Below, in pieces: positions 5,531-22,077 of a stretch of 28,159 nucleotides of DNA. Below the pieces are notes generated by a model. The model ran no database searches, was not told the DNA's origin, and saw nothing but the letters and a program-made list of their open reading frames with translations. The translations under genes were made by a program, and so were the position numbers. Where the stretch lies: the IMG/VR virus record IMGVR_UViG_3300033151_001031, positions 1 to 28,159 of that record. One strand, given 5' to 3'. Within the stretch, counting starts at the first letter, position 1. Each line of letters opens with the position of its first letter. This stretch comes from a virus.

Positions 5531-6361
5531 TTAATCAAAATAAACAATAACTTTTGAAAGTTCTTTTCCTGCAGGCCCAAAGATAGATGCCTTTGTACCG
5601 TTGGATTCCTCTGGGGAATTATTGGTACCGCAAAAGAATGTTTCGTGACTATGACCCTCTGGGCTGAAGTCTTTAGACCCATCAGGAACAACAAATACAT
5701 AATCGATTTCAGGCCAATAAAACACCAAGGTTCCTTTATACCCTGGTCTCAACCAAGTGAAGGATTTATTGTGGACAAATTTAAGATCTGTCCACTCTTC
5801 TTTACGGAATAGACCTTCTGCTTCTGCAGGCCTGCCATCGTGCTCCTTGGTCTCCTCTACGATCTCGATATAGCATTCTTCAGATCTGCAGTTGGCACCA
5901 GTGATGATGGCCATCCCTCTTCCTTGAACGTCAGACTGTTTTATAATTGTGGATCCATGTACAAGTCGGATCCCGTTATGACTCATCACCGGTATAGTAA
6001 CACACCCAGCAATTACGACTAAGAACTGTTGAGGGTAATCTTTCATCGGCAGGTTGAAGTACCACATAGGCCGGTCACCGTTATGTCGGCCATGGTACCT
6101 GCCAATCTCCTTACTTGTATCAAGGTCTTCATAAGGTTCATCGTCAGGTTCAAGGAAACTGTCATCAAGTTCCTCAAGTGGCTTGGTGTTCTCCCATTTG
6201 TCTCTTTTACCTAAGAGCCAATCGAAGTTGTCTGGATCCATTAACCAGTCACGGAAACCGATAAGGAATTTTTCCGTGACTCCTGGGAAGTTCACTGTTG
6301 ATACCAAGAGTATCACCAGGAGCCTCAACTTTGTTGCACTGAACGTCTTCAACAGATTCAT
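5531..6361 (-). CDS. Unknown protein with N-terminal hydrophobic segment (signal or anchor)
   Basis: The start is set at the ATG at 6361-6359 because AAGGAGATAAAG precedes it; an ATG eight codons upstream contains this SD inside its frame. This gives 276 aa. Residues ~10-28 (TKLRLLVILLVSTVNFPGV) form a hydrophobic stretch after a short basic N-terminus, compatible with a signal peptide or single membrane anchor. Residues ~60-85 are acidic (PLEELDDSFLEPDDEPYEDL). The rest looks like mixed beta structure with a few Cys (GANCRSEECYIEI; ETFFCGTNN). A secreted or envelope-associated phage protein is possible. No family is recognised. Only 11 nt separate its stop from the downstream TTG gene. Confidence 0.7.
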   Translation of the reverse strand: MNLLKTFSATKLRLLVILLVSTVNFPGVTEKFLIGFRDWLMDPDNFDWLLGKRDKWENTKPLEELDDSFLEPDDEPYEDLDTSKEIGRYHGRHNGDRPMWYFNLPMKDYPQQFLVVIAGCVTIPVMSHNGIRLVHGSTIIKQSDVQGRGMAIITGANCRSEECYIEIVEETKEHDGRPAEAEGLFRKEEWTDLKFVHNKSFTWLRPGYKGTLVFYWPEIDYVFVVPDGSKDFSPEGHSHETFFCGTNNSPEESNGTKASIFGPAGKELSKVIVYFD

Positions 6362-6412
6362 CGTTTTCTTTATCTCCTTTTGCATGCTATAAATTAGCCG
6401 ATCTTGTAGCGA

Positions 6413-6781
6413 TTATCCGACAGAGATTACTACAGGAACACGGAATTTCTTTTTTTTCTTAACGTTTGGATCCCAGCATTCCATACCCCACATAGAACCA
6501 TACCCACAACGGAGAACATCAACATCTATTCTCGCCTTCTGGTTATTTGAGGTGATGGACACAGTATCTGCTTTTCCTTTTTTTGTAATGGTAAAAATAA
6601 TAGTGGCCTTGATTTGTCTTCCTGCAGCATCCTCAGAAAAAACCACATTCTCACAACCCAGAATATCACCTCTCTTGTTTTTAACAACAGCAAAAGCACC
6701 TTTCAACAGGTGTCTAAATACTGACTTTCTCCATATTTTATAGGCGTAGTCATGCATAGTTGCGTTGCTAATAATTATCAT
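6413..6781 (-). CDS. Hypothetical protein
   Basis: This 122-aa protein starts in an ATGA overlap with the stop of the preceding (upstream on -) gene, with AGAGGTTATT before the ATG. The sequence is mixed alpha/beta: an N-terminal segment YAYKIWRKSVFRHLLKG, a central strand-rich part IKATIIFTITKKGKADTVSIT, and a basic KKKKKF run near the C-terminus. Two Cys (LRCGYG; MECWDP) are not arranged as an obvious metal site. No family is recognised. Translational coupling to the upstream gene suggests related function. Confidence 0.65.
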   Translation of the reverse strand: MIIISNATMHDYAYKIWRKSVFRHLLKGAFAVVKNKRGDILGCENVVFSEDAAGRQIKATIIFTITKKGKADTVSITSNNQKARIDVDVLRCGYGSMWGMECWDPNVKKKKKFRVPVVISVG

Positions 6782-7134
6782 AATAACCTCTTTTGAGACC
6801 TCTCGATAACATCGATCAGGGCAATCCGGTTGACCTTTGTCATCTGTTCAACTTTTTTAACAACATCAACAGAAACTCTTTTATTCCTCAAGAGCATTGG
6901 CAGCAATGTTGTCTCTTCTTTAGCACTCGCTTTACCAAAAATATGGTCAACCATACACTCAAAGATCTCTGTGTATTCTCCTACAGAGAGATGTTTTGGG
7001 GTGAGTGCGTCCAGGAGGAATAGGTACCTGTCGAGACTGACGTTGAAAAAACCACTAACGTTCTCAACATCCCTGTCCTTTAAGGCAGCCATGATCTTCC
7101 CGTTAATATATACAGATCGTTTTTCACCTGACAC
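6778..7134 (-). CDS. Hypothetical protein, possibly ribbon-helix-helix type
   Basis: The GTG start (7134-7132) is supported by CCGGAGG six nt upstream, inside the end of the DUF5131 gene, which it overlaps by 11 nt. The 118-aa product starts MSGEKRSVYINGKIMAAL, then NVSGFFNVSLDRYLFLLDAL. A short strand followed by two helices is reminiscent of ribbon-helix-helix DNA-binding proteins, but the match is weak. The C-terminal half is basic and helical (LLRNKRVSVDVVKKVEQM). A small regulator is one possibility. Confidence 0.62.
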   Translation of the reverse strand: MSGEKRSVYINGKIMAALKDRDVENVSGFFNVSLDRYLFLLDALTPKHLSVGEYTEIFECMVDHIFGKASAKEETTLLPMLLRNKRVSVDVVKKVEQMTKVNRIALIDVIERSQKRLL

Positions 7135-7843
7135 GATACACCTCCGGAAATTCCTGGATGTCCAGGTAGTCTGGAATAAGTTCCCTTTCTGGTTTTAACC
7201 GGCCAGCCATCTGCTTCATGAAAAAGGGGATCCCTTTTTGCTGGCACTGCTGCAAAACTCCCAGTGCCCAGTTGGGATCCATGGGCCGGAATTTATTACC
7301 GGATTCTCCACCGACTATAACCCAGTCGATTTTCTGCCGGTCGAATGGGTTGAGGTTTACACTGGAGAGCATCGGCTCAATACTGATAAAGTGGCAGATA
7401 TTGGGGATCTCGAGCAATACAGGGATCCTGGCATTAGCCATCTCCTGGTTTTCTGCAGTGACACCCAGCCATACATTAGGATATCCACCAGATCCCCAAT
7501 CAGCAGGCAGCCGGTCAACAATATTCTCAGGCCTCTTGGTGAGCAGCTGAAAATCAAGATGGGGGCAGGCCTTAATGATATCCCAGGCCTCAGATCTCCA
7601 CTCATCTGCCTGCTCAATAAAGAAATCAGACCAGCTGCAGACAAAGACAAGGGCATACTTCTTCACCCTGAATGGCATGTTGAATGTGGCATCCTTTGAC
7701 CTGACAATGTCTGTCGGATCCTGCCTGAATCGAGTTTTATCTCGGTACATATAACAGTAGGTACAACCCTCCGAGACCTTCCGGCATCCCTGCCAGGGGT
7801 TCCAGGTGTGGTTTGTCCAGTTAATCTTGCTGTTTTTTCCCAT
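7124..7843 (-). CDS. DUF5131 (phage Gp37/Gp68) radical-SAM-like protein
   Basis: This 239-aa protein has the hallmark opening of the DUF5131 family: INWTNHTWNPWQGCRKVSEG, then CTYCYMY. The three Cys are spaced C-x6-C-x2-C, an FeS/radical-SAM-like site. Later family motifs are also present: FVCSWSDFF, FQLLTKRPENI, PNVWLGVTAENQE, FISIEPMLS, DWVIVGGESG and GIPFFMKQM. Length is typical, and the ATG at 7843 has a CAAAGGAGAG SD. Members occur in many phages and mobile elements; their reaction is not established, and a radical-SAM TIM-barrel chemistry is presumed. It is the only - strand gene here with a confident enzyme-type assignment. Confidence 0.92.
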   Translation of the reverse strand: MGKNSKINWTNHTWNPWQGCRKVSEGCTYCYMYRDKTRFRQDPTDIVRSKDATFNMPFRVKKYALVFVCSWSDFFIEQADEWRSEAWDIIKACPHLDFQLLTKRPENIVDRLPADWGSGGYPNVWLGVTAENQEMANARIPVLLEIPNICHFISIEPMLSSVNLNPFDRQKIDWVIVGGESGNKFRPMDPNWALGVLQQCQQKGIPFFMKQMAGRLKPERELIPDYLDIQEFPEVYRVR

Positions 7844-8012
7844 AAATACTCTCCTTTGGGGGGATGAATTTGATCTTGAATTTATCAGCCTTTATTATCA
7901 TCTTTGCTGAGATGATAATCGGACGGTCTGGGACGTTCTTCCCCTGCTTGACCTCCTTGTAGATGTTGTCCGTGATTACTATCATGTGTATCAGTAGTAG
8001 TGCTGAGATCAT
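7821..8012 (-). CDS. 63-aa overlapping gene with hydrophobic N-terminus
   Basis: The ATG at 8012-8010 follows GGAGGAAGAAAA, one of the strongest SD sites in the cluster. It opens 63 codons that overlap the C-terminal 128 nt of the 7885-8394 gene in another frame, and then the first 23 nt of the DUF5131 gene. The product begins MISALLLIHMIVI, a short hydrophobic segment, and continues with a Lys/Ile-rich part (IIISAKMIIKADKFKIKFIPP). It could be a small membrane or secreted peptide. It looks more protein-like than the polar tail of the gene it overlaps. No family is recognised. Confidence 0.55.
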   Translation of the reverse strand: MISALLLIHMIVITDNIYKEVKQGKNVPDRPIIISAKMIIKADKFKIKFIPPKESIYGKKQQD

Positions 8013-8394
8013 TTTTCTTCCTCCGGATAACATCTTTAGCCCAGTCCAACATGGCCTTTCCACATATCCCTTTTTGATTTTCAAGGCACAGAGATCCGTA
8101 TGTGCCATATCCTGACCTGAAGTGCAGCCACGTTCCATCACTGCCTTGAGTGATGTCCAGGCCTGCACATGGTCGAATAGATCCCTCTGGCATCATCTCT
8201 GCGTTGCTTGTAGGTGGTGTCCACCCAAGCTCCAGTAGTGCCTGCCTAATACCGGCATCCCTGGTATCACAGATCCAAGTGCAAACCTTTGTCGATTTCT
8301 TATCCAGGTCTACCCTCGTAAGACTTTGCTCAATAACTCCATCTCCGAATATGGAAGTATTGATCCTGTAATCCAAACATTTTCTTTCACTCAT
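7885..8394 (-). CDS. Hypothetical protein
   Basis: The ATG at 8394-8392 is favoured by AGGGAGATTTAAA upstream; an ATG eight codons earlier has no SD. The product is 169 aa. Residues 1-125 look like a folded domain with several Cys (KVCTWICDTRD; RPCAGLD; SLCLENQKGICGKAM) and a GTWLHFRSGYGTYG strand pair. The last ~40 residues (STTTDTHDSNHGQHLQGG and on) are low-complexity and polar, and coincide with the out-of-frame 63-aa gene, so they may be a passive extension. Function unknown. Confidence 0.65.
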   Translation of the reverse strand: MSERKCLDYRINTSIFGDGVIEQSLTRVDLDKKSTKVCTWICDTRDAGIRQALLELGWTPPTSNAEMMPEGSIRPCAGLDITQGSDGTWLHFRSGYGTYGSLCLENQKGICGKAMLDWAKDVIRRKKNDLSTTTDTHDSNHGQHLQGGQAGEERPRPSDYHLSKDDNKG

Positions 8395-8549
8395 TTTAAA
8401 TCTCCCTATGTAGGCCATGATCCTCTTTCACCGGCAAATGGTTGGTAACCACCCTCGAGCATACACCTCCAGAGAACCATGGCCCAGGCACTCAGCAGCA
8501 AACAGGGTACCAATCCTGCAGCTGCCTGCACCCTCTGGGGTTGATAAAA
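8395..8549. other. 155-nt intercistronic gap with nested inverted repeats
   Basis: There is no convincing gene in this gap. It contains nested complementary segments, CCCAG/CTGGG and AGGGT/ACCCT, around a CTGCAG-containing core near 8490-8540. A GGTTACCAACC near-palindrome lies close to 8440 (- strand sense). Frames of 18-40 codons exist on the - strand but lack well-spaced SD sites. It may be a structured leader for the 7885-8394 gene. Confidence 0.4.
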
Positions 8550-8876
8550 TTAGTCTCTCTCCAACTTTACTCCAAGGATTCTCTCAATCCCTTGCCTGAC
8601 TTGCTCCCTGCCTTCTCGGTGACCGGCATTAAAACCTTCGTTATATACCTGCTGCACAAGATCAAGAAGCACATCCCAGGCCTCTACACCCAGGGAGTGA
8701 AACGTGAAATCAGAAGTATCCTTGATCTTTACAGGTGGAGCATCGTCCGGCACATTCTTTCCCCCAAACCGGACACCAAGGATATGATTTTCATGATCAT
8801 CAATCCAGATATCACGTCCTTTTGGTGTGGTAAATCCTTTTGGGTCTTGAACTTTAACTGCATTTTTCTTCGTCAT
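8550..8876 (-). CDS. Hypothetical protein
   Basis: This 108-aa protein has an ATG at 8876-8874 preceded by AAGGAGGTTTT, a near-perfect SD. The N-terminal half is basic and strand-rich (KNAVKVQDPKGFTTPKGRDIWIDD, DFTFHSLGVEAW). The C-terminal half is one or two amphipathic helices (VLLDLVQQVYNEGFNAG, then EGREQVRQGIERILG). No family is recognised. It follows the 8886-9119 gene by nine nt, so it is probably on the same transcript. Confidence 0.7.
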   Translation of the reverse strand: MTKKNAVKVQDPKGFTTPKGRDIWIDDHENHILGVRFGGKNVPDDAPPVKIKDTSDFTFHSLGVEAWDVLLDLVQQVYNEGFNAGHREGREQVRQGIERILGVKLERD

Positions 8877-8885
8877 AAAACCTCC

Positions 8886-9119
8886 TTAAATGAATAGATC
8901 TACAAGATCCTTCTGCTGCCCATTGGTGTACAGGCCTTCCGGATCCTTCCAATAATAATTTCTCCTCATCCTCTGCCGGTCTCTACCCATAGCTTCATCA
9001 GGGTCAACATGCAGTGCGAACGCACTCTCCATAAATCCCTCATGGGGTGACTGCTTATCCTCTATAGGAACGAAACCACAATGAGCATAAAAATGAGAGT
9101 AAAGGTATGGGTGACTCAT
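8886..9119 (-). CDS. Small hypothetical protein
   Basis: This 77-aa protein starts in an ATGA overlap with the stop of the 9116-9526 gene and has GGAGGAGTT as SD. The sequence is His/Tyr/Asp-rich (SHPYLYSHFYAHCGFVP; ALHVDPDEAMGRDRQRMRRNYYW), with several His and one Cys, but no clear metal motif. Coupled translation with the upstream gene suggests a functional link. No family is recognised. Confidence 0.65.
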   Translation of the reverse strand: MSHPYLYSHFYAHCGFVPIEDKQSPHEGFMESAFALHVDPDEAMGRDRQRMRRNYYWKDPEGLYTNGQQKDLVDLFI

Positions 9120-9526
9120 AACTCCTCCAGTTCTCCATCCCAGTCGAGATGGATGTGTAAAATTTTTCCTTCCTGGTTAATTTTCTCCACCTTAAAAGGA
9201 ACTCTGACCTCTGTGTCATCATACTTGCCATGGATAGTCACATCAACAAAAGAGGAGTATTCTATCTTTACAATATCCCTACCCATCCACTTGATCAGCC
9301 GGTCAGAAACGTCCGGCAGCTGAACAGAGAAAACTTCCAGGCAATCTTCTGCATAAGGATAAGAGTGCCCATGATCAAAACCTTTCTGGCCCCAGAATTC
9401 ATATGGCCCTATGCCGGTGCTCTCCCAGCTGATCGTTGGGGGATTTTCATCAACAGCAAGTTCCATGTTATCAAGGATGAGTTCAATCAGTAATTCGATG
9501 GTGCATGTGTGGTCGTTGTTCATCAT
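9116..9526 (-). CDS. Conserved-looking hypothetical phage protein
   Basis: The start is the ATG at 9526-9524, placed by AAAGGAGAATAGCT; the frame stays open upstream but without an SD. The product is 136 aa. Residues 30-55 carry ISWESTGIGPYEFWGQKGFD, a motif I recall from uncharacterised phage proteins. The following part alternates strands (CLEVFSVQLPD, IVKIEYSSFVDVTIHGKYDD) and ends in a very acidic tail (HLDWDGELEEL). Function unknown. Confidence 0.68.
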   Translation of the reverse strand: MMNNDHTCTIELLIELILDNMELAVDENPPTISWESTGIGPYEFWGQKGFDHGHSYPYAEDCLEVFSVQLPDVSDRLIKWMGRDIVKIEYSSFVDVTIHGKYDDTEVRVPFKVEKINQEGKILHIHLDWDGELEEL

Positions 9527-9614
9527 AGCTATTCTCCTTTTGTCAGTGGCTATCATAATCATACTCCAGGAACCACCCTGGAATGACTCCCCTCGCAGGA
9601 GGAGTTTCGAATTA

Positions 9615-9827
9615 TTAAACTTTGAAAAGACCGTTAACCATCTGAGGGCCAAGCTCAATGGAACACCCTTGATGAGGTTCGTTCTCGGTTGTGTACGTGT
9701 TTATCCACAACTTGCACTTATACTCCTGGCAGGGCACAAAAGATTCCTCTGCTATCACTCCGGAACCATCCCCCTCTTCAGGGCCTCTTTTAAATTGTGG
9801 TCGAGACATAATTGGACAAATGGCCAT
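9615..9827 (-). CDS. Small Cys-containing hypothetical protein
   Basis: The ATG at 9827-9825 is chosen because GAGGAGGAATTT precedes it; a longer frame from 9869 has no SD and would include it. The 70-aa product starts MAICPIMSRP and later has PCQEYKCKLW and a GCSIEL element. This gives four Cys in an arrangement seen in small phage proteins that probably bind a metal. A perfect 12-bp hairpin lies 31 nt upstream of the start. Function unknown. Confidence 0.68.
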   Translation of the reverse strand: MAICPIMSRPQFKRGPEEGDGSGVIAEESFVPCQEYKCKLWINTYTTENEPHQGCSIELGPQMVNGLFKV

Positions 9828-9857
9828 AAATTCCTCCTCACACTTTTGTTGATATTG

Positions 9858-9887
9858 TGTGAGACACAAACCATCTTGTGTCTCACA
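9858..9887. promoter_or_regulatory. 12-bp perfect dyad upstream of the 9615-9827 gene
   Basis: TGTGAGACACAA (9858-9869) and TTGTGTCTCACA (9876-9887) are exact reverse complements with a 6-nt centre. On the - strand this would be a stem-loop in the leader just before the SD of the 9615-9827 gene, or a DNA operator. It matches the dyad at 11695-11722 apart from compensating changes, a different central pair and its ends. There is no T-run, so a simple intrinsic terminator is unlikely. Confidence 0.7.
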
Positions 9888-9913
9888 GATTGGGTTTGAC
9901 GAGCATCAAACCA

Positions 9914-10066
9914 TTAAATCTCGGTGACAACCAAGCCACCAAGGACATGTGGATTGTACCCGATAGCAATCAAGTATGACCGTGCATACCCTTTCGCCTC
10001 GAGCATATGAGAAGCCGTAAACCTATGGACTTCTCGATGATCCAGAACAGCACGATACCAAATCAT
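9914..10066 (-). CDS. 50-aa hypothetical protein
   Basis: The ATG at 10066-10064 follows TAGGAGGTGCC, an excellent SD, and opens 50 codons to TAA at 9916-9914. The product (MIWYRAVLDHREVHRFTASH, then GYARSYLIAIGYN and a hydrophobic LGGLVV end) looks like a small folded alpha/beta protein. It fills what would otherwise be a 300-nt gap. A 10-bp hairpin sits immediately upstream of its SD. No family is recognised. Confidence 0.7.
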   Translation of the reverse strand: MIWYRAVLDHREVHRFTASHMLEAKGYARSYLIAIGYNPHVLGGLVVTEI

Positions 10067-10076
10067 GGCACCTCCT

Positions 10077-10119
10077 AAATAAGAGGCACTGACTAAATAG
10101 GCAGCACCTCTTATTTTTT
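10077..10119. promoter_or_regulatory. 10-bp hairpin between two - strand genes
   Basis: AAATAAGAGG (10077-10086) pairs exactly with CCTCTTATTT (10107-10116) around a 20-nt loop. On the + strand it continues into a T-tract (10114-10119). On the - strand it lies just after the stop of the 10130-10429 gene, and its 3' arm abuts the AGGAGG of the 50-aa gene. It may be a partial terminator, a processing site or a translational control element. Confidence 0.6.
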
Positions 10120-10129
10120 CAGTTAAGTT

Positions 10130-10429
10130 TTACGCTACCATGAAACTCTGGCCATTGATGCGAAGGCCCTGCAGTTTCCGGACATTAACATTGCGATAGC
10201 CTTTGCTGTTTACATCCCAGACAGTGATGTACTTAGGGATGTGAGAAGTGGTGCTGGGCTTGCCAGGAACAGTCTTCAAGAACTTCTTGACTCCCAACTT
10301 ACAGGTCATATCCCTGCTATCACCATTCTTCTTGGTGAAGGTCACTCCAAAGAAGCCGGACATTGGCTTGTTGCCGTTCTTACGGATCTCGTTCACTGCC
10401 TCTGCTGCACTAATAAGTTTCTGTCCCAT
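10130..10429 (-). CDS. Small conserved-type phage protein of unknown function
   Basis: The start is the ATG at 10429-10427, with AAGGAGAATATC upstream, giving 99 aa; a longer frame includes this SD. The sequence has an N-terminal helix (ISAAEAVNEIRKNG), then strands with FFGVTFTKKNGDSRDMTCK. The C-terminal YITVWDVNSKGYRNVNVRKL is followed by LRINGQSF, a pattern I recall from small uncharacterised phage proteins. It is basic overall and could bind nucleic acid. Function unknown. Confidence 0.7.
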   Translation of the reverse strand: MGQKLISAAEAVNEIRKNGNKPMSGFFGVTFTKKNGDSRDMTCKLGVKKFLKTVPGKPSTTSHIPKYITVWDVNSKGYRNVNVRKLQGLRINGQSFMVA

Positions 10430-10451
10430 GATATTCTCCTTATCTTTGGGT

Positions 10452-10523
10452 TTATGAAACAAGTCTAAAAACAACGATCAACCAGATTACTATATTGAGA
10501 ACTGCCAATATTTTAATAGTCAT
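10452..10523 (-). CDS. 23-aa predicted membrane micro-peptide
   Basis: The ATG at 10523-10521 follows ATGGAGGATCTAT (seven-nt spacing) and encodes 23 residues ending in TAA (10454-10452). Almost the whole peptide is one hydrophobic helix (MTIKILAVLNIVIWLIVVF) with single Arg and Lys residues, long enough to cross a membrane. It overlaps the end of the small 10513-10608 frame by 11 nt and ends 23 nt before the next gene start. Short hydrophobic phage peptides can act in superinfection exclusion or lysis, but nothing here decides that. Confidence 0.5.
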   Translation of the reverse strand: MTIKILAVLNIVIWLIVVFRLVS

Positions 10524-10608
10524 ATAGATCCTCCATGTAGAGTTGATCGGCTATCTCGTCAGTGCCTGGAACCACCCAGGACAGACACACCCTCATAACC
10601 GGAACCAT
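10513..10608 (-). CDS. Possible 27-31-aa acidic peptide
   Basis: This frame lies between the 10625-10807 gene and the 23-aa peptide. Two in-frame ATGs (10608 and 10596) precede an acidic end (DEIADQLYMEDLYDY). The SD evidence is poor. Its 11-nt overlap with the strongly initiated 23-aa gene is the main reason to suspect it is translated. Otherwise this is simply the leader of that gene. Confidence 0.28.
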   Translation of the reverse strand: MVPVMRVCLSWVVPGTDEIADQLYMEDLYDY

Positions 10609-10624
10609 AGGATGTGTTTCGAAT

Positions 10625-10807
10625 TTACTTAATGTTTCCTTTTGCCTTCTCAAGGATCCAGTAACCACCTCCAATATCCATGAAGTTTTTTGCTCCAGGA
10701 TAAGGAACTCCGAATCCAACCAGATCACTTATCAGGGATTTTTTATCAAGGTTACCCTGCTTTGTGCGAGTTCTTACAAAATCTCTACACTCTTCTTTTG
10801 TTCTCAT
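10625..10807 (-). CDS. Small hypothetical protein
   Basis: This 60-aa protein starts at the ATG at 10807-10805, with GAGG about ten nt upstream, 17 nt after the preceding stop. It has a charged helical N-terminus (MRTKEECRDFVRTRTKQGNLD) and a Gly-rich centre (VGFGVPYPGAKNFMDIGGGYW). It is preferred over the overlapping longer frame at 10513-10728 because of its SD, its position and its balanced composition. No family is recognised. Confidence 0.62.
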   Translation of the reverse strand: MRTKEECRDFVRTRTKQGNLDKKSLISDLVGFGVPYPGAKNFMDIGGGYWILEKAKGNIK

Positions 10808-10824
10808 GATGTCATTTCCTCAAC

Positions 10825-11076
10825 TTAAAATATCTGATGCCTTGTGATCCTGATAATGTCTTTATTGCCGACCTCATCGTTCACCTCTACAATCGACACT
10901 TTTGATGAATCAATATCAGCAAGGTTCTCTAATATAAAGTCAAACAGTTTCAGGTCAGTGACAACCCAGTCGAATTCATTTACAATCTGGCAAATGATTT
11001 CATCTACTGTCTTGATCTTTTCACAGAAGGAACTTTCCTCCCCATGTTCGATCATCCAGCCTATTTTTATTTTCAT
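10825..11076 (-). CDS. Small acidic hypothetical protein
   Basis: This 83-aa protein has an ATG at 11076-11074 and a TGAGGTAAATAA leader. It is acidic and alternates strand and helix (MKIKIGWMIEHGEES; VDEIICQIVNEFDWVVTDL; VSIVEVNDEVG). Small acidic early phage proteins sometimes mimic DNA or block host enzymes, but nothing specific is visible. No family is recognised. Confidence 0.62.
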   Translation of the reverse strand: MKIKIGWMIEHGEESSFCEKIKTVDEIICQIVNEFDWVVTDLKLFDFILENLADIDSSKVSIVEVNDEVGNKDIIRITRHQIF

Positions 11077-11097
11077 TTTATTTACCTCAGTTAAAAT

Positions 11098-11328
11098 TTA
11101 ATCCGGAAGTACTGCCTGAACCCCTGTCGTTTTCTTGGGCAACCATTTGGGAAGTGCCTGGGCTACTGTATGATAGGCCTTCCTGCTGCCGGTTCTACCA
11201 GGAACGTGGGAGATGAATTTAAAGCCACCCAACACTGGGTAAAACTGGATGACTCCGTACAGCATGTATGGAATTGTAGTCCCAAATATTTTCGCAACCG
11301 TGAATGGTGCTGACCTTTTCTTCGCCAT
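11098..11328 (-). CDS. Small basic hypothetical protein
   Basis: This 76-aa protein has an ATG at 11328-11326 following GTAGGAGATACC. It is strongly basic (MAKKRSAPF; RTGSRKAYH; KWLPKKTTG), with an aromatic and hydrophobic middle (IPYMLYGVIQFYPVLGG) that is too short and broken for a clear membrane helix. Nucleic-acid binding is possible from charge alone. It is eight nt downstream of the zinc-ribbon protein gene, probably on the same transcript. Confidence 0.62.
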   Translation of the reverse strand: MAKKRSAPFTVAKIFGTTIPYMLYGVIQFYPVLGGFKFISHVPGRTGSRKAYHTVAQALPKWLPKKTTGVQAVLPD

Positions 11329-11336
11329 GGTATCTC

Positions 11337-11672
11337 CTACCCGTGAAAGTTTTTGCCGGTTTGCTTCCTGTACATGTTCTGAAGGATGTTGACCCTCTTC
11401 TGTGCCTTGAGGATTCTGTGCTGAAGGACTAAGAGATCTACTTCTTGATTGTCCTTTCCATCCTTATACCGTGTGATCAATTCCCCGTATTGAACCTCGA
11501 TAACTTCTGGCTCAATAACCTTAAAGCCACAATCCCTGCACTTCACAAAGGGAGTTAATTTTTCGCCATCCCAATCACTACCACCGAGCATTGCATTTCC
11601 ACTGAAACACTTTGGACATGTGCCCTCTGTACCTGCTGACCTGTAGATCTTTGTTTCTGTTTCTTTATTCAT
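11337..11672 (-). CDS. Zinc-ribbon / coiled-coil hypothetical protein
   Basis: This 111-aa protein has an ATG at 11672-11670 with a CAAGGAGATGTC leader. The N-terminal half contains a clear zinc ribbon, GTCPKCFSGNAML then VKCRDCGFKVIEP (CxxC...CxxC), as in phage restriction-alleviation Lar-like and other ribbon proteins. The C-terminal half is a long basic helix (VLQHRILKAQKRVNILQNMY). The closest known pattern is Lar/DUF551-type, but the tail is longer; function unproven. A perfect dyad (11695-11722) lies 22 nt upstream. Confidence 0.7.
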   Translation of the reverse strand: MNKETETKIYRSAGTEGTCPKCFSGNAMLGGSDWDGEKLTPFVKCRDCGFKVIEPEVIEVQYGELITRYKDGKDNQEVDLLVLQHRILKAQKRVNILQNMYRKQTGKNFHG

Positions 11673-11694
11673 GACATCTCCTTGTAGTTAATAG

Positions 11695-11722
11695 ATGAGT
11701 CACAAAGTATCTTGTGACTCAT
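11695..11722. promoter_or_regulatory. 11-bp perfect dyad upstream of the 11337-11672 gene
   Basis: ATGAGTCACAA (11695-11705) and TTGTGACTCAT (11712-11722) are exact reverse complements around a 6-nt centre. It shares the TGAG-W-CACAA / TTGTG-W-CTCA pattern with the dyad at 9858-9887; the W pair is A/T there and T/A here. Both lie 20-35 nt upstream of a - strand start codon. It is either a protein operator or a conserved leader hairpin. Confidence 0.7.
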
Positions 11723-11747
11723 ATTTATGGTTTCGTGATACACAAAC

Positions 11748-12446
11748 TTAAATGTTGTCGAGCATTGATGATGCCTGCATGACCTCTGCAGTGATGCTGT
11801 TGTAAGCAGCTTTAAAGTCTTTGGAGTTTTTCCGGCCATACTGTTTAGCCAGGATCTCGAGCATGATGCTCAGGCCTCTGCCACGGGGGAGTTCTGCTTT
11901 ACGCAGGCCCATGGCTACATCATCACAAAAACCTCTCATACCGTCCTGCAGGGCATCAGCATAAGGGATAAGGATGTCAAGCACCGGCTGCAGCTTATCC
12001 AATCTCTGCTGCTCCATACGATTCCGGATGATCTCTGACCATCTGTTCTCACTCTCACCTTTCGAGAGACCGGCATAGATCTGACGTTCCTGGAAGAGCC
12101 GAGCCTCACGTTGCTGCAGCTGCTTGGCATGTTTCTTTTCCCTGATGCGTTTGTTCTTTGCATATCGTGCAGCATTTATCAGGCCAACATCACCGGCCTT
12201 ATTGATACACTCAGATCCAACCGCACTGACTTTGCCGTTCATATCCTTGATCAGATAGTGAACACTGATTCCCATACCGCAATAATGGCAACTGCCGACA
12301 CCACATGGGGCCGATGCTATCATCCTGTTGTACTGGTTTGGATAATTAGCCTGGAACCCTCTGGATGGCATTTCCCAGATTCCTACAAATCTAAATGGTG
12401 CAAAACCAAGACCTCGAATTTCAAATACATGAATATTTTCTGCCAT
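11748..12446 (-). CDS. Conserved-type protein with Cys cluster and coiled coil
   Basis: The ATG at 12446-12444 is used because AGGAGGATTAGTC precedes it (232 aa); a longer frame starts in the previous gene. The N-terminal domain reads HVFEIRGLGFAPFRFVGIWE, then APCGVGSCHYCGMGISVHYL and VGSECINKAGDVGL. This gives Cys in C-x4-C-x2-C plus a later Cys, a probable zinc site. I recall this layout from uncharacterised proteins of phages and their hosts. Residues ~110-160 are a charged coiled coil (KRIREKKHAKQLQQREARL). The C-terminus is helical. Function unknown. Confidence 0.75.
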   Translation of the reverse strand: MAENIHVFEIRGLGFAPFRFVGIWEMPSRGFQANYPNQYNRMIASAPCGVGSCHYCGMGISVHYLIKDMNGKVSAVGSECINKAGDVGLINAARYAKNKRIREKKHAKQLQQREARLFQERQIYAGLSKGESENRWSEIIRNRMEQQRLDKLQPVLDILIPYADALQDGMRGFCDDVAMGLRKAELPRGRGLSIMLEILAKQYGRKNSKDFKAAYNSITAEVMQASSMLDNI

Positions 12447-12448
12447 GA

Positions 12449-12694
12449 CTAATCCTCCTGGTAACCATTTCTCCAGGTCTCTGAGTACATCCACTCATTG
12501 AGCCTAGTGTTGAAAGTCAGAATCATATAAAAACAATTCAGTCCTTTCCGAGTTCGATACTTCCCTGACTGCTCCCTGGCCTTTTCCCTGGCCATCTTCA
12601 TACTGCTTTCCAGAGGCCCAACGATACGGGTTATTTCAGTCTCGCAGTTATAGAGCAGGGAGTCTGTGTGTTTTACTATCTTCCTTAAAGCCAT
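12449..12694 (-). CDS. Small hypothetical protein
   Basis: This 81-aa protein has an ATG at 12694-12692 after CAACAGGAGATCC. The protein is basic and helical in the first half (LRKIVKHTDSLLYNCETEI; MKMAREKAREQSGKYRT) and aromatic in the second (CFYMILTFNTRLNEWMYSETW). It lies two nt before the start of the 11748-12446 gene, whose SD is inside its 3' end, so the two are probably translated together. A repeated hairpin element lies just upstream. No family is recognised. Confidence 0.65.
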   Translation of the reverse strand: MALRKIVKHTDSLLYNCETEITRIVGPLESSMKMAREKAREQSGKYRTRKGLNCFYMILTFNTRLNEWMYSETWRNGYQED

Positions 12695-12710
12695 TGGATC
12701 TCCTGTTGAG

Positions 12711-12772
12711 GTTGATGTTTAAAACATATCCCCAGCAACCGACTATGCCGGTGGCCAGGAAGTTGTTTTAAA
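12711..12772 (-). repeat. Copy 1 of a repeated intercistronic hairpin element
   Basis: TTTAAAACA (12718-12726) and TGTTTTAAA (12764-12772) form an outer AT-rich stem. Between them the - strand folds CCTGGC/GCTGGG and ACCG/CGGT around ACTATGC's complement, using G-U pairs that exist only in - strand RNA. The outer flanks (GTTGATGTT...) match copy 2 at 13188-13246. The element spans the stop of the 12768-13076 gene and precedes the SD of the 12449-12694 gene. Confidence 0.62.
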
Positions 12773-13076
12773 TACTGGGGAGGTTATCCCAACCTTCATG
12801 AACATTGTCCATGAGGTCTTTGATATCCATACAAGACTTGACGAGAGCCTCGTTACGCATATCGTACCGGCCATTTTCATACTCCTTGCCCCATGCTCTG
12901 ATCAGGGCAAATATCAATCGACCAAGGTTCTGCTGCAGGGTGCGGTGAGTCCTACCCACAATCTGCTCGATGAAGATGTCTTTCCGGTGACCAGACCGGT
13001 TAACAAAGTCACGGAGGTCTCCTGCCAGATCAACTGCCTCTTTGGTTCTTTCCTGCTCAATAAGATCTTTTTCCAT
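12768..13076 (-). CDS. Helical hypothetical protein
   Basis: This 102-aa protein has an ATG at 13076-13074 with a TAGGAGAACAGC leader. It is almost entirely predicted helix, rich in Glu, Arg, Asp and Leu (EKDLIEQERTKEAVDLAGDL; TLQQNLGRLIFALIRAWGKE; SCMDIKDLMDNVHEGWDNL). It might be a small oligomeric or protein-binding factor. No family is recognised. A long inverted repeat lies directly upstream. Confidence 0.66.
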   Translation of the reverse strand: MEKDLIEQERTKEAVDLAGDLRDFVNRSGHRKDIFIEQIVGRTHRTLQQNLGRLIFALIRAWGKEYENGRYDMRNEALVKSCMDIKDLMDNVHEGWDNLPSI

Positions 13077-13100
13077 GCTGTTCTCCTATGAAGGTTGAAA

Positions 13101-13189
13101 GTTAATCACCTGCCTGCCTGTCTTTACCTCTGTGCGAGGAGTAGCCAAGGGGCAAACCTGGACTTAACAATCATCGGCAGGTGATTAGT
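13101..13189. repeat. Long inverted repeat, possible structured RNA of about 85 nt
   Basis: AATCACCTGCC (13104-13114) and GGCAGGTGATT (13176-13186) are exact complements. One further A-T pair and two G-U-type pairs extend this to about 14 bp enclosing ~61 nt. The interior has smaller helices (CCTC/GAGG around GCACA on the - strand; GCC/GGC nearby). It fills most of the 166-nt gap upstream of the 12768-13076 gene. It may be a leader RNA or small RNA. It lacks tRNA features, and no ORF with an SD is present. Confidence 0.55.
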
Positions 13190-13246
13190 TGATGTTAAAA
13201 ACATGTCTCCGACTGCAGCTGCCTGCAGCCAGAAAATTGTTTTTAA
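13188..13246 (-). repeat. Copy 2 of the repeated intercistronic hairpin element
   Basis: TTAAAAACA (13195-13203) and TGTTTTTAA (13238-13246) form the outer stem. Inside, the - strand pairs CTGGCTGCAG with CTGCAGTCGG across GCAG, a 10-bp stem that needs G-U pairs available only in - strand RNA. Flanks match copy 1 (20 of 23 nt on one side by eye), while the hairpin core differs in sequence. It overlaps the stop of the 13243-13524 gene. Confidence 0.62.
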
Positions 13247-13524
13247 ACTTGGCCTATTGCTTTCAAGGCACTGTGAGCACCCAGAGCAAAGGAGTTTACC
13301 AGCAGGGATGCCTTGTAATACTCTTTGTTACAGAAGTCTTTTGCTTCACAAGACCACAACTTCATAAAGTTTCCACTGTCCTCAGACATATTCCTGATCC
13401 AGATCATCAACCTTCTATCATCTCCCCAGGATTCGAAGTTCCCGATGTATCCAAACTCGAGAGTTCCAATGTCGGCTACCAGTGTATTCAAGTCTTGCTC
13501 GGTCTTGTCATTTTTCCTTGCCAT
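13243..13524 (-). CDS. Hypothetical protein
   Basis: This 93-aa protein has an ATG at 13524-13522 and a TAGGAGAGAATC leader. It has a polar N-terminus (MARKNDKTEQDLNTLVADIG), a central aromatic part (FGYIGNFESWGDDRRLMIWI) and two Cys (LWSCEAKDFCNKE). The C-terminus is helical and small-residue-rich (LVNSFALGAHSALKAIG). Nine nt separate it from the 13534-13884 gene. No family is recognised. Confidence 0.66.
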   Translation of the reverse strand: MARKNDKTEQDLNTLVADIGTLEFGYIGNFESWGDDRRLMIWIRNMSEDSGNFMKLWSCEAKDFCNKEYYKASLLVNSFALGAHSALKAIGQV

Positions 13525-13533
13525 GATTCTCTC

Positions 13534-13884
13534 CTATTTAGTGAAGTCTCTTGTGGTTACAACTTTCAGGTCTTCGTGACCAAGGTCGGTACCGGATTCC
13601 ATATTGGTTCTGTATATGAGATCCGCAATAGCTGCAGAGGTGTTATCCCCTCTACCTAATGGACAACCCTTAATCTCATCGTGTGGCAGGTTGAATGATG
13701 CCCTGTAGGCCAGCTTACCAGTAGGTACGCCAGCATATCTTCCTTCTGAGATCTCTACAATGATGCCCTTCTTGAAGAAAGGATGAACTCTCCCACACAT
13801 GGCACATGTTCTATCAGGGGTGCCTTCGTTGGGATCGAGCAGGTCAACATCACAACTACATCCTGTTACTTTCTCTATCTGCAT
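13534..13884 (-). CDS. Hypothetical protein with N-terminal Cys cluster
   Basis: This 116-aa protein has an ATG at 13884-13882 after TAAGGAGACACC. The first 35 residues carry GCSCDVDLLD, then RTCAMCGRVHPFF (CxC and CxxC with a following His), a likely zinc or other metal site. The rest is mixed alpha/beta (GIIVEISEGRYAGVP; TSAAIADLIYRTNM). It is not recognised as a known family. It lies ten nt downstream of the first gene of the - strand cluster. Confidence 0.68.
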   Translation of the reverse strand: MQIEKVTGCSCDVDLLDPNEGTPDRTCAMCGRVHPFFKKGIIVEISEGRYAGVPTGKLAYRASFNLPHDEIKGCPLGRGDNTSAAIADLIYRTNMESGTDLGHEDLKVVTTRDFTK

Positions 13885-13893
13885 GGTGTCTCC

Positions 13894-14244
13894 TTAATAT
13901 TCCTGGTTGATTAGGTAACTGTCCTCGACTCCCTCGACCTTGGTGACATACCCAGATTCGAGTGCCTTGGCCAATAACTGGTCAGCATCAAGTTCAAAGT
14001 TAAAGCTCGGTGCCTGCTGCATGAAAAGCTGCTGCTTGTTTACGATCTCACCTTCATATACTTCAGGATCAGGAGTATCTTCAGTGTCTCGAGATACTAT
14101 CTTGATGCCCTTGTAGCCATCGTCTTTCCATCCTTCCTTCTCAGCATCCATTTCGTATTTGCAATCGGCTCTTACGAATGAACCAAAAAGAACTTCCTGC
14201 TTACCATCTATCTTGCCGACCACTTCATAATATTTGTTTGCCAT
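13894..14244 (-). CDS. First gene of the - strand cluster, hypothetical acidic protein
   Basis: This 116-aa protein has an ATG at 14244-14242 with a CAGGAGAACGAC leader. It is acidic and predicted alpha/beta (NKYYEVVGKIDGKQEVLFGS; RADCKYEMDAEKEGWKDDG; DADQLLAKALESGY). As the promoter-proximal gene of the cluster, it is expected to be among the first - strand products made. No family is recognised. A long leader (up to ~220 nt) with a hairpin precedes it if transcription starts near 14460. Confidence 0.68.
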   Translation of the reverse strand: MANKYYEVVGKIDGKQEVLFGSFVRADCKYEMDAEKEGWKDDGYKGIKIVSRDTEDTPDPEVYEGEIVNKQQLFMQQAPSFNFELDADQLLAKALESGYVTKVEGVEDSYLINQEY

Positions 14245-14439
14245 GTCGTTCTCCTGAATTCTTTAAGCTGCCACCATCCTATATAGTAGCAAGTCAAAAC
14301 ATTCGGAGGACTGTTCCAGGTATCTGTCTCATAAACAGATGAGGGCCTGGAAAATTGGGTTGACCTGTCACGGTCGGTTGCCTCTATACTCTTCCAGTCT
14401 CGCTCTGGGATGATCTTTTTCTGAGGAAACCTCCCCCGT

Positions 14440-22043: not shown

Positions 22044-22077
22044 AGACCACGGCACTCTATCATGGGTGCTGTGGTCT
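22044..22077 (+). promoter_or_regulatory. 12-bp hairpin after the capsid/decoration genes
   Basis: AGACCACGGCAC (22044-22055) pairs with GTGCTGTGGTCT (22066-22077), with one G-U pair, around ten nt. There is no T-run downstream. It could protect the 3' end of the abundant capsid mRNA, be an RNase III-type site, or reduce read-through into the adaptor genes. Confidence 0.62.

Follow-up and report, generated by a model that had tools for sequence, protein, structure and literature searches.

Paralogous hairpins anchored on stop codons in a minus-strand phage operon

Why would a phage place two near-copies of one hairpin between the small genes of an operon? The question arises in a virus record of 28,159 bases, the whole of which was analysed and is referred to here as the window. 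Its terminase shares 43% identity with that of Burkholderia phage BcepC6B, and terminase and portal together suggest a podovirus-like phage. On the minus strand a series of small genes, from 14244 to 5531, diverges from terS/terL, and two of its intergenic gaps are occupied by the hairpins, which we term e1 and e2. A 93-aa gene (13243–13524, minus strand, no family) lies upstream of e2, a 102-aa gene (12768–13076, minus strand, no family above the cut-off) separates e2 from e1, and an 81-aa gene (12449–12694, minus strand, no family) lies downstream of e1. Gene order and strand suggest that both elements sit between genes of one polycistronic phage transcript.

The two hairpins follow a common plan: a 9-bp A/U base containing one C-G pair, a 2×2 internal loop (A·A plus C·U or U·C), a core of 13–14 pairs and a terminal loop of 3–4 nt. 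In e1 (12718–12772, minus strand), the base UUUAAAACA/UGUUUUAAA leads through the loop AC/UA into a core consisting of an 8-bp helix (UUCCUGGC/GCUGGGGA), a C·U mismatch and a 6-bp helix (ACCGGC/GUCGGU) capped by AUA. In e2 (13195–13246, minus strand), the base UUAAAAACA/UGUUUUUAA, the loop AU/CA and an uninterrupted 13-bp core (UUUCUGGCUGCAG/CUGCAGUCGGAGA) end in the loop GCAG. The flanks are also held in common, with GTTGATGTT.AAAACAT on one side (23 nt, 87% identity) and GCCAG..A..TTGTTTT on the other. A duplicated hairpin element at these positions, with near-identical flanks and a common outer AT stem, is what a sequence-only reading of this DNA had described, and that description is accurate. 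Exact matches to the flank GTTGATGTTNAAAACAT occur in the window only at e1 and e2; looser matches to the flank motif number five, a count that shuffled sequences never reached. When the whole window was scanned by ungapped stem score, e1 and e2 ranked as the top minus-strand stems. Directly 3′ of e2, at 13103–13187 on the minus strand, lies a further structured stretch (z −3.3), in which a perfect 12-bp closing stem (UAAUCACCUGCC/GGCAGGUGAUUA) encloses a structured interior of 61 nt.

Convincing folding is confined to one strand. The minus-strand energy of e1 is −26.3 kcal/mol, against −14.3 ± 2.5 for shuffles (z −4.75), and that of e2 is −27.9 kcal/mol, against −12.7 ± 2.8 (z −5.34); none of 200 shuffles matched either value. 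On the plus strand both fold weakly (z −0.46 for e1 and −1.53 for e2). RNAfold places four G-U pairs in e1 and three in e2; on the plus strand these turn into A-C, as the earlier reading had noted. It had also claimed that the cores differ in sequence and still pair: in the two-copy alignment 97.7% of cells are paired, with both sides changed in 4 of 22 pairs and one side in two more (G-C/G-U switches), whereas sliding the partner by 1–3 columns left 41–55% of cells paired and no double changes. A column-shuffle control reached the observed value in 30 of 500 trials. Because this control is weak with two sequences, we weighed it jointly with the difference between strands, the compensatory changes and the evidence from related phages. 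By their anatomy, strand and compensatory change, e1 and e2 are paralogous hairpins on minus-strand mRNA.

We then looked for the same sequence elsewhere. BLAST against phage records with e1, e2 and the operon returned no match, Rfam covariance models gave none either, and relatives of the flanking proteins were marginal or absent. The two conserved arms also served as patterns for scanning 2.9 million viral contigs, which yielded 101 and 98 stretches: the hairpin formed in none of the 101, and in the 98 from the second scan blastn matches to e1/e2 were confined to the surroundings of the short pattern. Within the collections searched, the exact sequence exists in two copies only.

Relatives of the terminase, mostly at 62–73% identity, offered another route. 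Their minus-strand operons carry genes largely different from those of the window, and in five of them (L006, L007, L008, L009 and L011) the minus-strand operon upstream of terS contains a hairpin of its own, about 60 nt long and laid out as TTGAYCATTGGACCA-[G+C hairpin]-GCAGTCGAGCGGTCAAACATCAAC. Searching the whole contigs yielded exactly two copies in L006, L008, L009 and L011, and one in L007, whose contig is truncated. Across the nine copies 98.8% of cells are paired, with 12 double-change cells, a result reached by 0 of 500 shuffles; the slid controls contained no double-change cells except at +2 (6 cells). The RNAalifold consensus is stronger on the minus strand (−29.5 versus −20.5 kcal/mol), although individually the copies fold with similar strength on either strand. 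At the base, GGACCA...GCAGUCGAGCGGU is invariant in all nine copies, unpaired bases included, while the top hairpin varies; the stem is less regular than is typical of RNase III substrates, and none of the copies has a U tract beside it. The sequence-only reading had staked its case on e1 and e2 being more than an isolated pair devoid of covariation in relatives: the exact sequence did stay at two copies, but the relatives carry covarying pairs of their own element. Strand-specific folding, compensatory changes and an architecture that covaries in related phages support its proposal that selection acts on minus-strand RNA.

The comparison among relatives also shows what surrounds the element, and its neighbours are often unrelated. 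The copy at 8169–8227 of L006 is 98.3% identical to that at 7478–7536 of L008, and the flanking sequence on both sides is non-homologous, so that in this pair the element is kept while both neighbours are replaced; in L011, the gene adjoining copy b is unlike that in L006 and L008. In L008 and L009, the match to the terminase large subunit is split (9035–9151 and 10001–11428 in L008; 9047–9163 and 10001–11458 in L009), with residues 1–39 matching separately, some 850 bp ahead of the main match, a pattern that would suit an inserted intron or homing-endonuclease gene.

That each element spans a stop codon, also pointed out in the sequence-only reading, proved its most telling feature. In e1 the UAA of the upstream 102-aa gene (12768–12770, minus strand) lies in the 5′ arm as bases 3–5 of the stem, and in e2 the UAA of the 93-aa gene (13243–13245, minus strand) forms bases 2–4. 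The stop takes stem position +1/+2 in e1, in e2 and in six of the nine copies in relatives, though the upstream genes differ; in those six, a UGA or UAA falls exactly at +1, and in the other three the stop precedes the stem by 7, 12 and 24 nt. If stops fell uniformly over 43 positions, such clustering at +1 would have a chance of about 1e-8, a significance that is over-estimated since the copies share descent. This anchoring, irrespective of which gene supplies the stop, is the unusual part of the arrangement. On the other side of e1, the single-stranded tail ACAUCAACCUCAAC (12705–12717, minus strand; G-free, its first base possibly paired) separates the hairpin from the next Shine-Dalgarno sequence, an AGGAG at 12700–12704 (minus strand) that belongs to the 81-aa gene and lies outside the stem; 3′ of e2 stands the conserved tail CAUCAAC (13188–13194, minus strand). 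Copy a of L009 carries exactly the tail of e1, AAACATCAAC, and tails before Shine-Dalgarno sites contain 6 G in 190 nt, compared with 22–25% G in the genomes.

Do the two hairpin families share an ancestor? The covariance model of the relatives' element, run against the window, scored e1 at 8.8 bits, with a non-significant E of 3.8, and the search that the sequence-only reading had proposed, with a model built from e1 and e2, failed to match L006 or L008. With E 3.8 at best, the models do not demonstrate a shared ancestry of the hairpin bodies. What the families share is anatomy, position, copy number, orientation, stop-codon anchoring and the tail. The matching arrangement occurs with another hairpin sequence in five related phages, and this speaks for a functional mRNA element and against a chance repeat.

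Among known systems, we place e1 and e2 with the intergenic hairpins of phage operons, as a variant. REP-type 3′-stabilising hairpins of bacterial operons likewise stand just past a stop codon, but REP elements occur in many copies and are tied to RAYT/Y1 transposases. For the T7 early-region RNase III sites (R0.3, R0.5, R1, R1.1 and R1.3), we folded sequence from the T7 record at what we take to be the site positions, which were not drawn from the record's annotation. At these presumed positions the sites, like e1 and e2, are built as lower stem, internal loop and upper stem; they too lie between the small genes of an operon and are paralogous copies whose upper stems vary and remain paired, and in R0.5 the stem begins at the gene 0.4 stop codon, as e1 and e2 start in stops. 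The T7 type is a hairpin of at least about 20 bp that contains an internal loop, and e1 and e2 are of this form. The sequences themselves are unlike (nothing in e1 or e2 resembles AAGGUC...GGCCUU), and the T7 sites have asymmetric internal loops and upper stems of about 9–10 bp, compared with a 2×2 loop and a 13–14 bp core here. Cleavage of the T7 sites is established, as cited in PMC5371410; for e1 and e2 it would be a prediction. The ESAS elements of Cluster K mycobacteriophages are, like e1 and e2, imperfect inverted repeats in intergenic gaps; they lie upstream of non-structural gene starts, have a lineage-specific consensus and are of unknown function (PMC3203893). They adjoin a 13-bp SAS, GGGATAGGAGCCC, and occur many times, unlike the two copies here, which are tied to an upstream stop codon; the window holds only two matches to SAS at 3 mismatches, below chance and none of them near e1 or e2. 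The 17-bp palindromic repeats of Cluster O mycobacteriophages also occupy short intergenic regions and coincide with gene insertions and deletions, but these are 34 invariant short palindromes, about a third of them in coding regions, and are probably DNA sites (PMC4351075).

What might such hairpins do? By analogy with the T7 RNase III sites, our leading and still tentative reading is that translation gates e1 and e2, and that these mRNA hairpins serve to process stretches of the operon transcript or to protect them. The terminating ribosome would sit over the 5′ foot of the stem; on its departure the stem would close, presenting a cleavage site or a barrier to exonucleases. The folded hairpin would then act as a processing or end-protecting site, splitting a long transcript and shielding its segments, a role suggested by the architecture (9-bp base, internal loop, 13–14 bp core, intergenic position, paralogous copies and compensatory variation), and the G-poor unpaired tail AAACAUCAAC may keep the next ribosome-binding site open. 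The earlier suggestion of processing or 3′-end elements that partition the operon is therefore plausible and in line with this reading; its further option, attenuation or termination, is disfavoured, given stems that begin in stop codons and relatives that lack a U tract.

Termination was weighed in its own right. Intrinsic, perhaps partial, terminators or attenuators could grade the expression of distal genes, and the e2 core with its CATGTTTTTA tail does pass a simple, loose terminator scan, as does e1 weakly and only as a short stem. Yet the U run begins 4 nt past the core and is itself paired within the 9-bp base, and the relatives' elements have no U tract although terminator-like stems with a T run exist elsewhere in the same relatives (for example L004 2925–2974 and L008 3240–3275). 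The stem, moreover, begins in a stop codon, and translating ribosomes repress terminators close behind one (PMC4824070). Because the U run lies in the stem, the relatives lack it and ribosomes repress stop-proximal terminators, we consider intrinsic termination unlikely.

The main rival is instead a specific RNA-binding protein, since the basal sequence of the relatives' element is invariant. The hairpins would in that case be binding sites for a phage or host protein controlling translation or anti-termination along the operon without cleavage, in the manner of boxB/put or ESAS. The invariance in nine copies, down to unpaired bases, hints at this, and a G-poor tail upstream of ribosome sites would suit it; set against it are the absence of that basal sequence from e1 and e2, the lack of an identified candidate protein, and a location of both copies inside the operon and not in a leader. 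We regard it as a serious possibility, though a clearly less probable one than processing or protection. Blocks of homology between relatives stop where the element lies, on one flank or on both, and the stop codon keeps its position behind different genes, as expected of a DNA-level joint for exchanging gene cassettes that gives a stop codon to whichever gene is joined. An identical picture would, however, result from the usual mosaic recombination at a conserved intergenic block of any kind, while the bias to the minus strand and the compensatory changes argue for RNA; attC-type R boxes were not seen by eye, and neither a tyrosine integrase nor a Y1 transposase was found in these contigs, which may be incomplete. 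A dedicated recombination boundary is thus improbable. On the same two absences, and with the same reservation about incomplete records, an integron attC-like reading (no tyrosine integrase) and a REP/RAYT reading (no Y1 (HUH) transposase) were rejected. Least probable of all is that e1 and e2 arose by chance or by neutral duplication of an intergenic hairpin and have no function: this would fit two exact copies in a window without close relatives in the collections searched, but not a core that diverged with compensation, nor the parallel hairpin pairs of the relatives.

Returning to the stop-codon anchoring, a broader proposal joins these strands and is more speculative than processing or protection taken by itself. 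e1, e2 and the relatives' elements could belong to a family of modular intergenic hairpins, two per phage, each with its own stop codon in the stem foot and a tail open to the next ribosome; genes would be swapped around the elements, the terminating ribosome would gate a processing or protein-binding hairpin, and the hairpin sequence would turn over between phages as the arrangement stays. If this is right, phages possess a compact, exchangeable means to separate genes within one transcript, and the stop codon would be a component of an RNA switch. A search rule independent of sequence would follow (hairpin foot on a stop codon, G-poor tail, ribosome site), applicable where a phage's RNA biology is beyond the reach of culture, and the elements might make useful spacers for synthetic operons.

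Other hairpins accompany e1 and e2. Within the operon (5531–14244, minus strand), nearly all gaps of at least 60 nt contain a strong hairpin, one more lies at 10077–10116, and gaps shorter than 30 nt have none. Two of the spacers, igA (11680–11752, minus strand) and igB (9846–9918, minus strand), are paralogous tandem hairpins with compensated stems, GAGUCACAA/UUGUGACUC versus GAGACACAA/UUGUGUCUC. Elements of this type, with the core TGAGNCACAA-N4-TTGTGNCTCA, also lie at 7533–7607 of contig L215 and 7712–7765 of contig L224; the igA spacer is 79% identical over 75 nt to one in an unrelated phage contig, and a similar one is present in a Magnetococcales genome. The palindrome also stands beside Fic_N/Fic genes in Pontiella, Gramella, Algibacter and a gammaproteobacterium, and igA/igB may be the operator of Fic-type regulators carried by phages. 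Because they match operator-like DNA sites beside bacterial Fic genes, we gave up a first view in which the operon's intergenic hairpins were all one RNA family; igA and igB are probably a separate thing from e1 and e2.

Paralogous intergenic hairpins were also seen in another, unrelated phage, L215, where a hairpin followed by GCATCATTTAACGGAG is repeated at 8107–8156 and 8465–8517 (85% alike). Elsewhere in the window, 8419–8549 is a possible unlisted gene, a 24-pair hairpin at 14250–14310 (minus strand) lies in the leader of the first minus-strand gene and takes in its Shine-Dalgarno AGGAG, and a perfect 14-bp hairpin, with no U tract, lies between two late genes at 22044–22077 on the plus strand.
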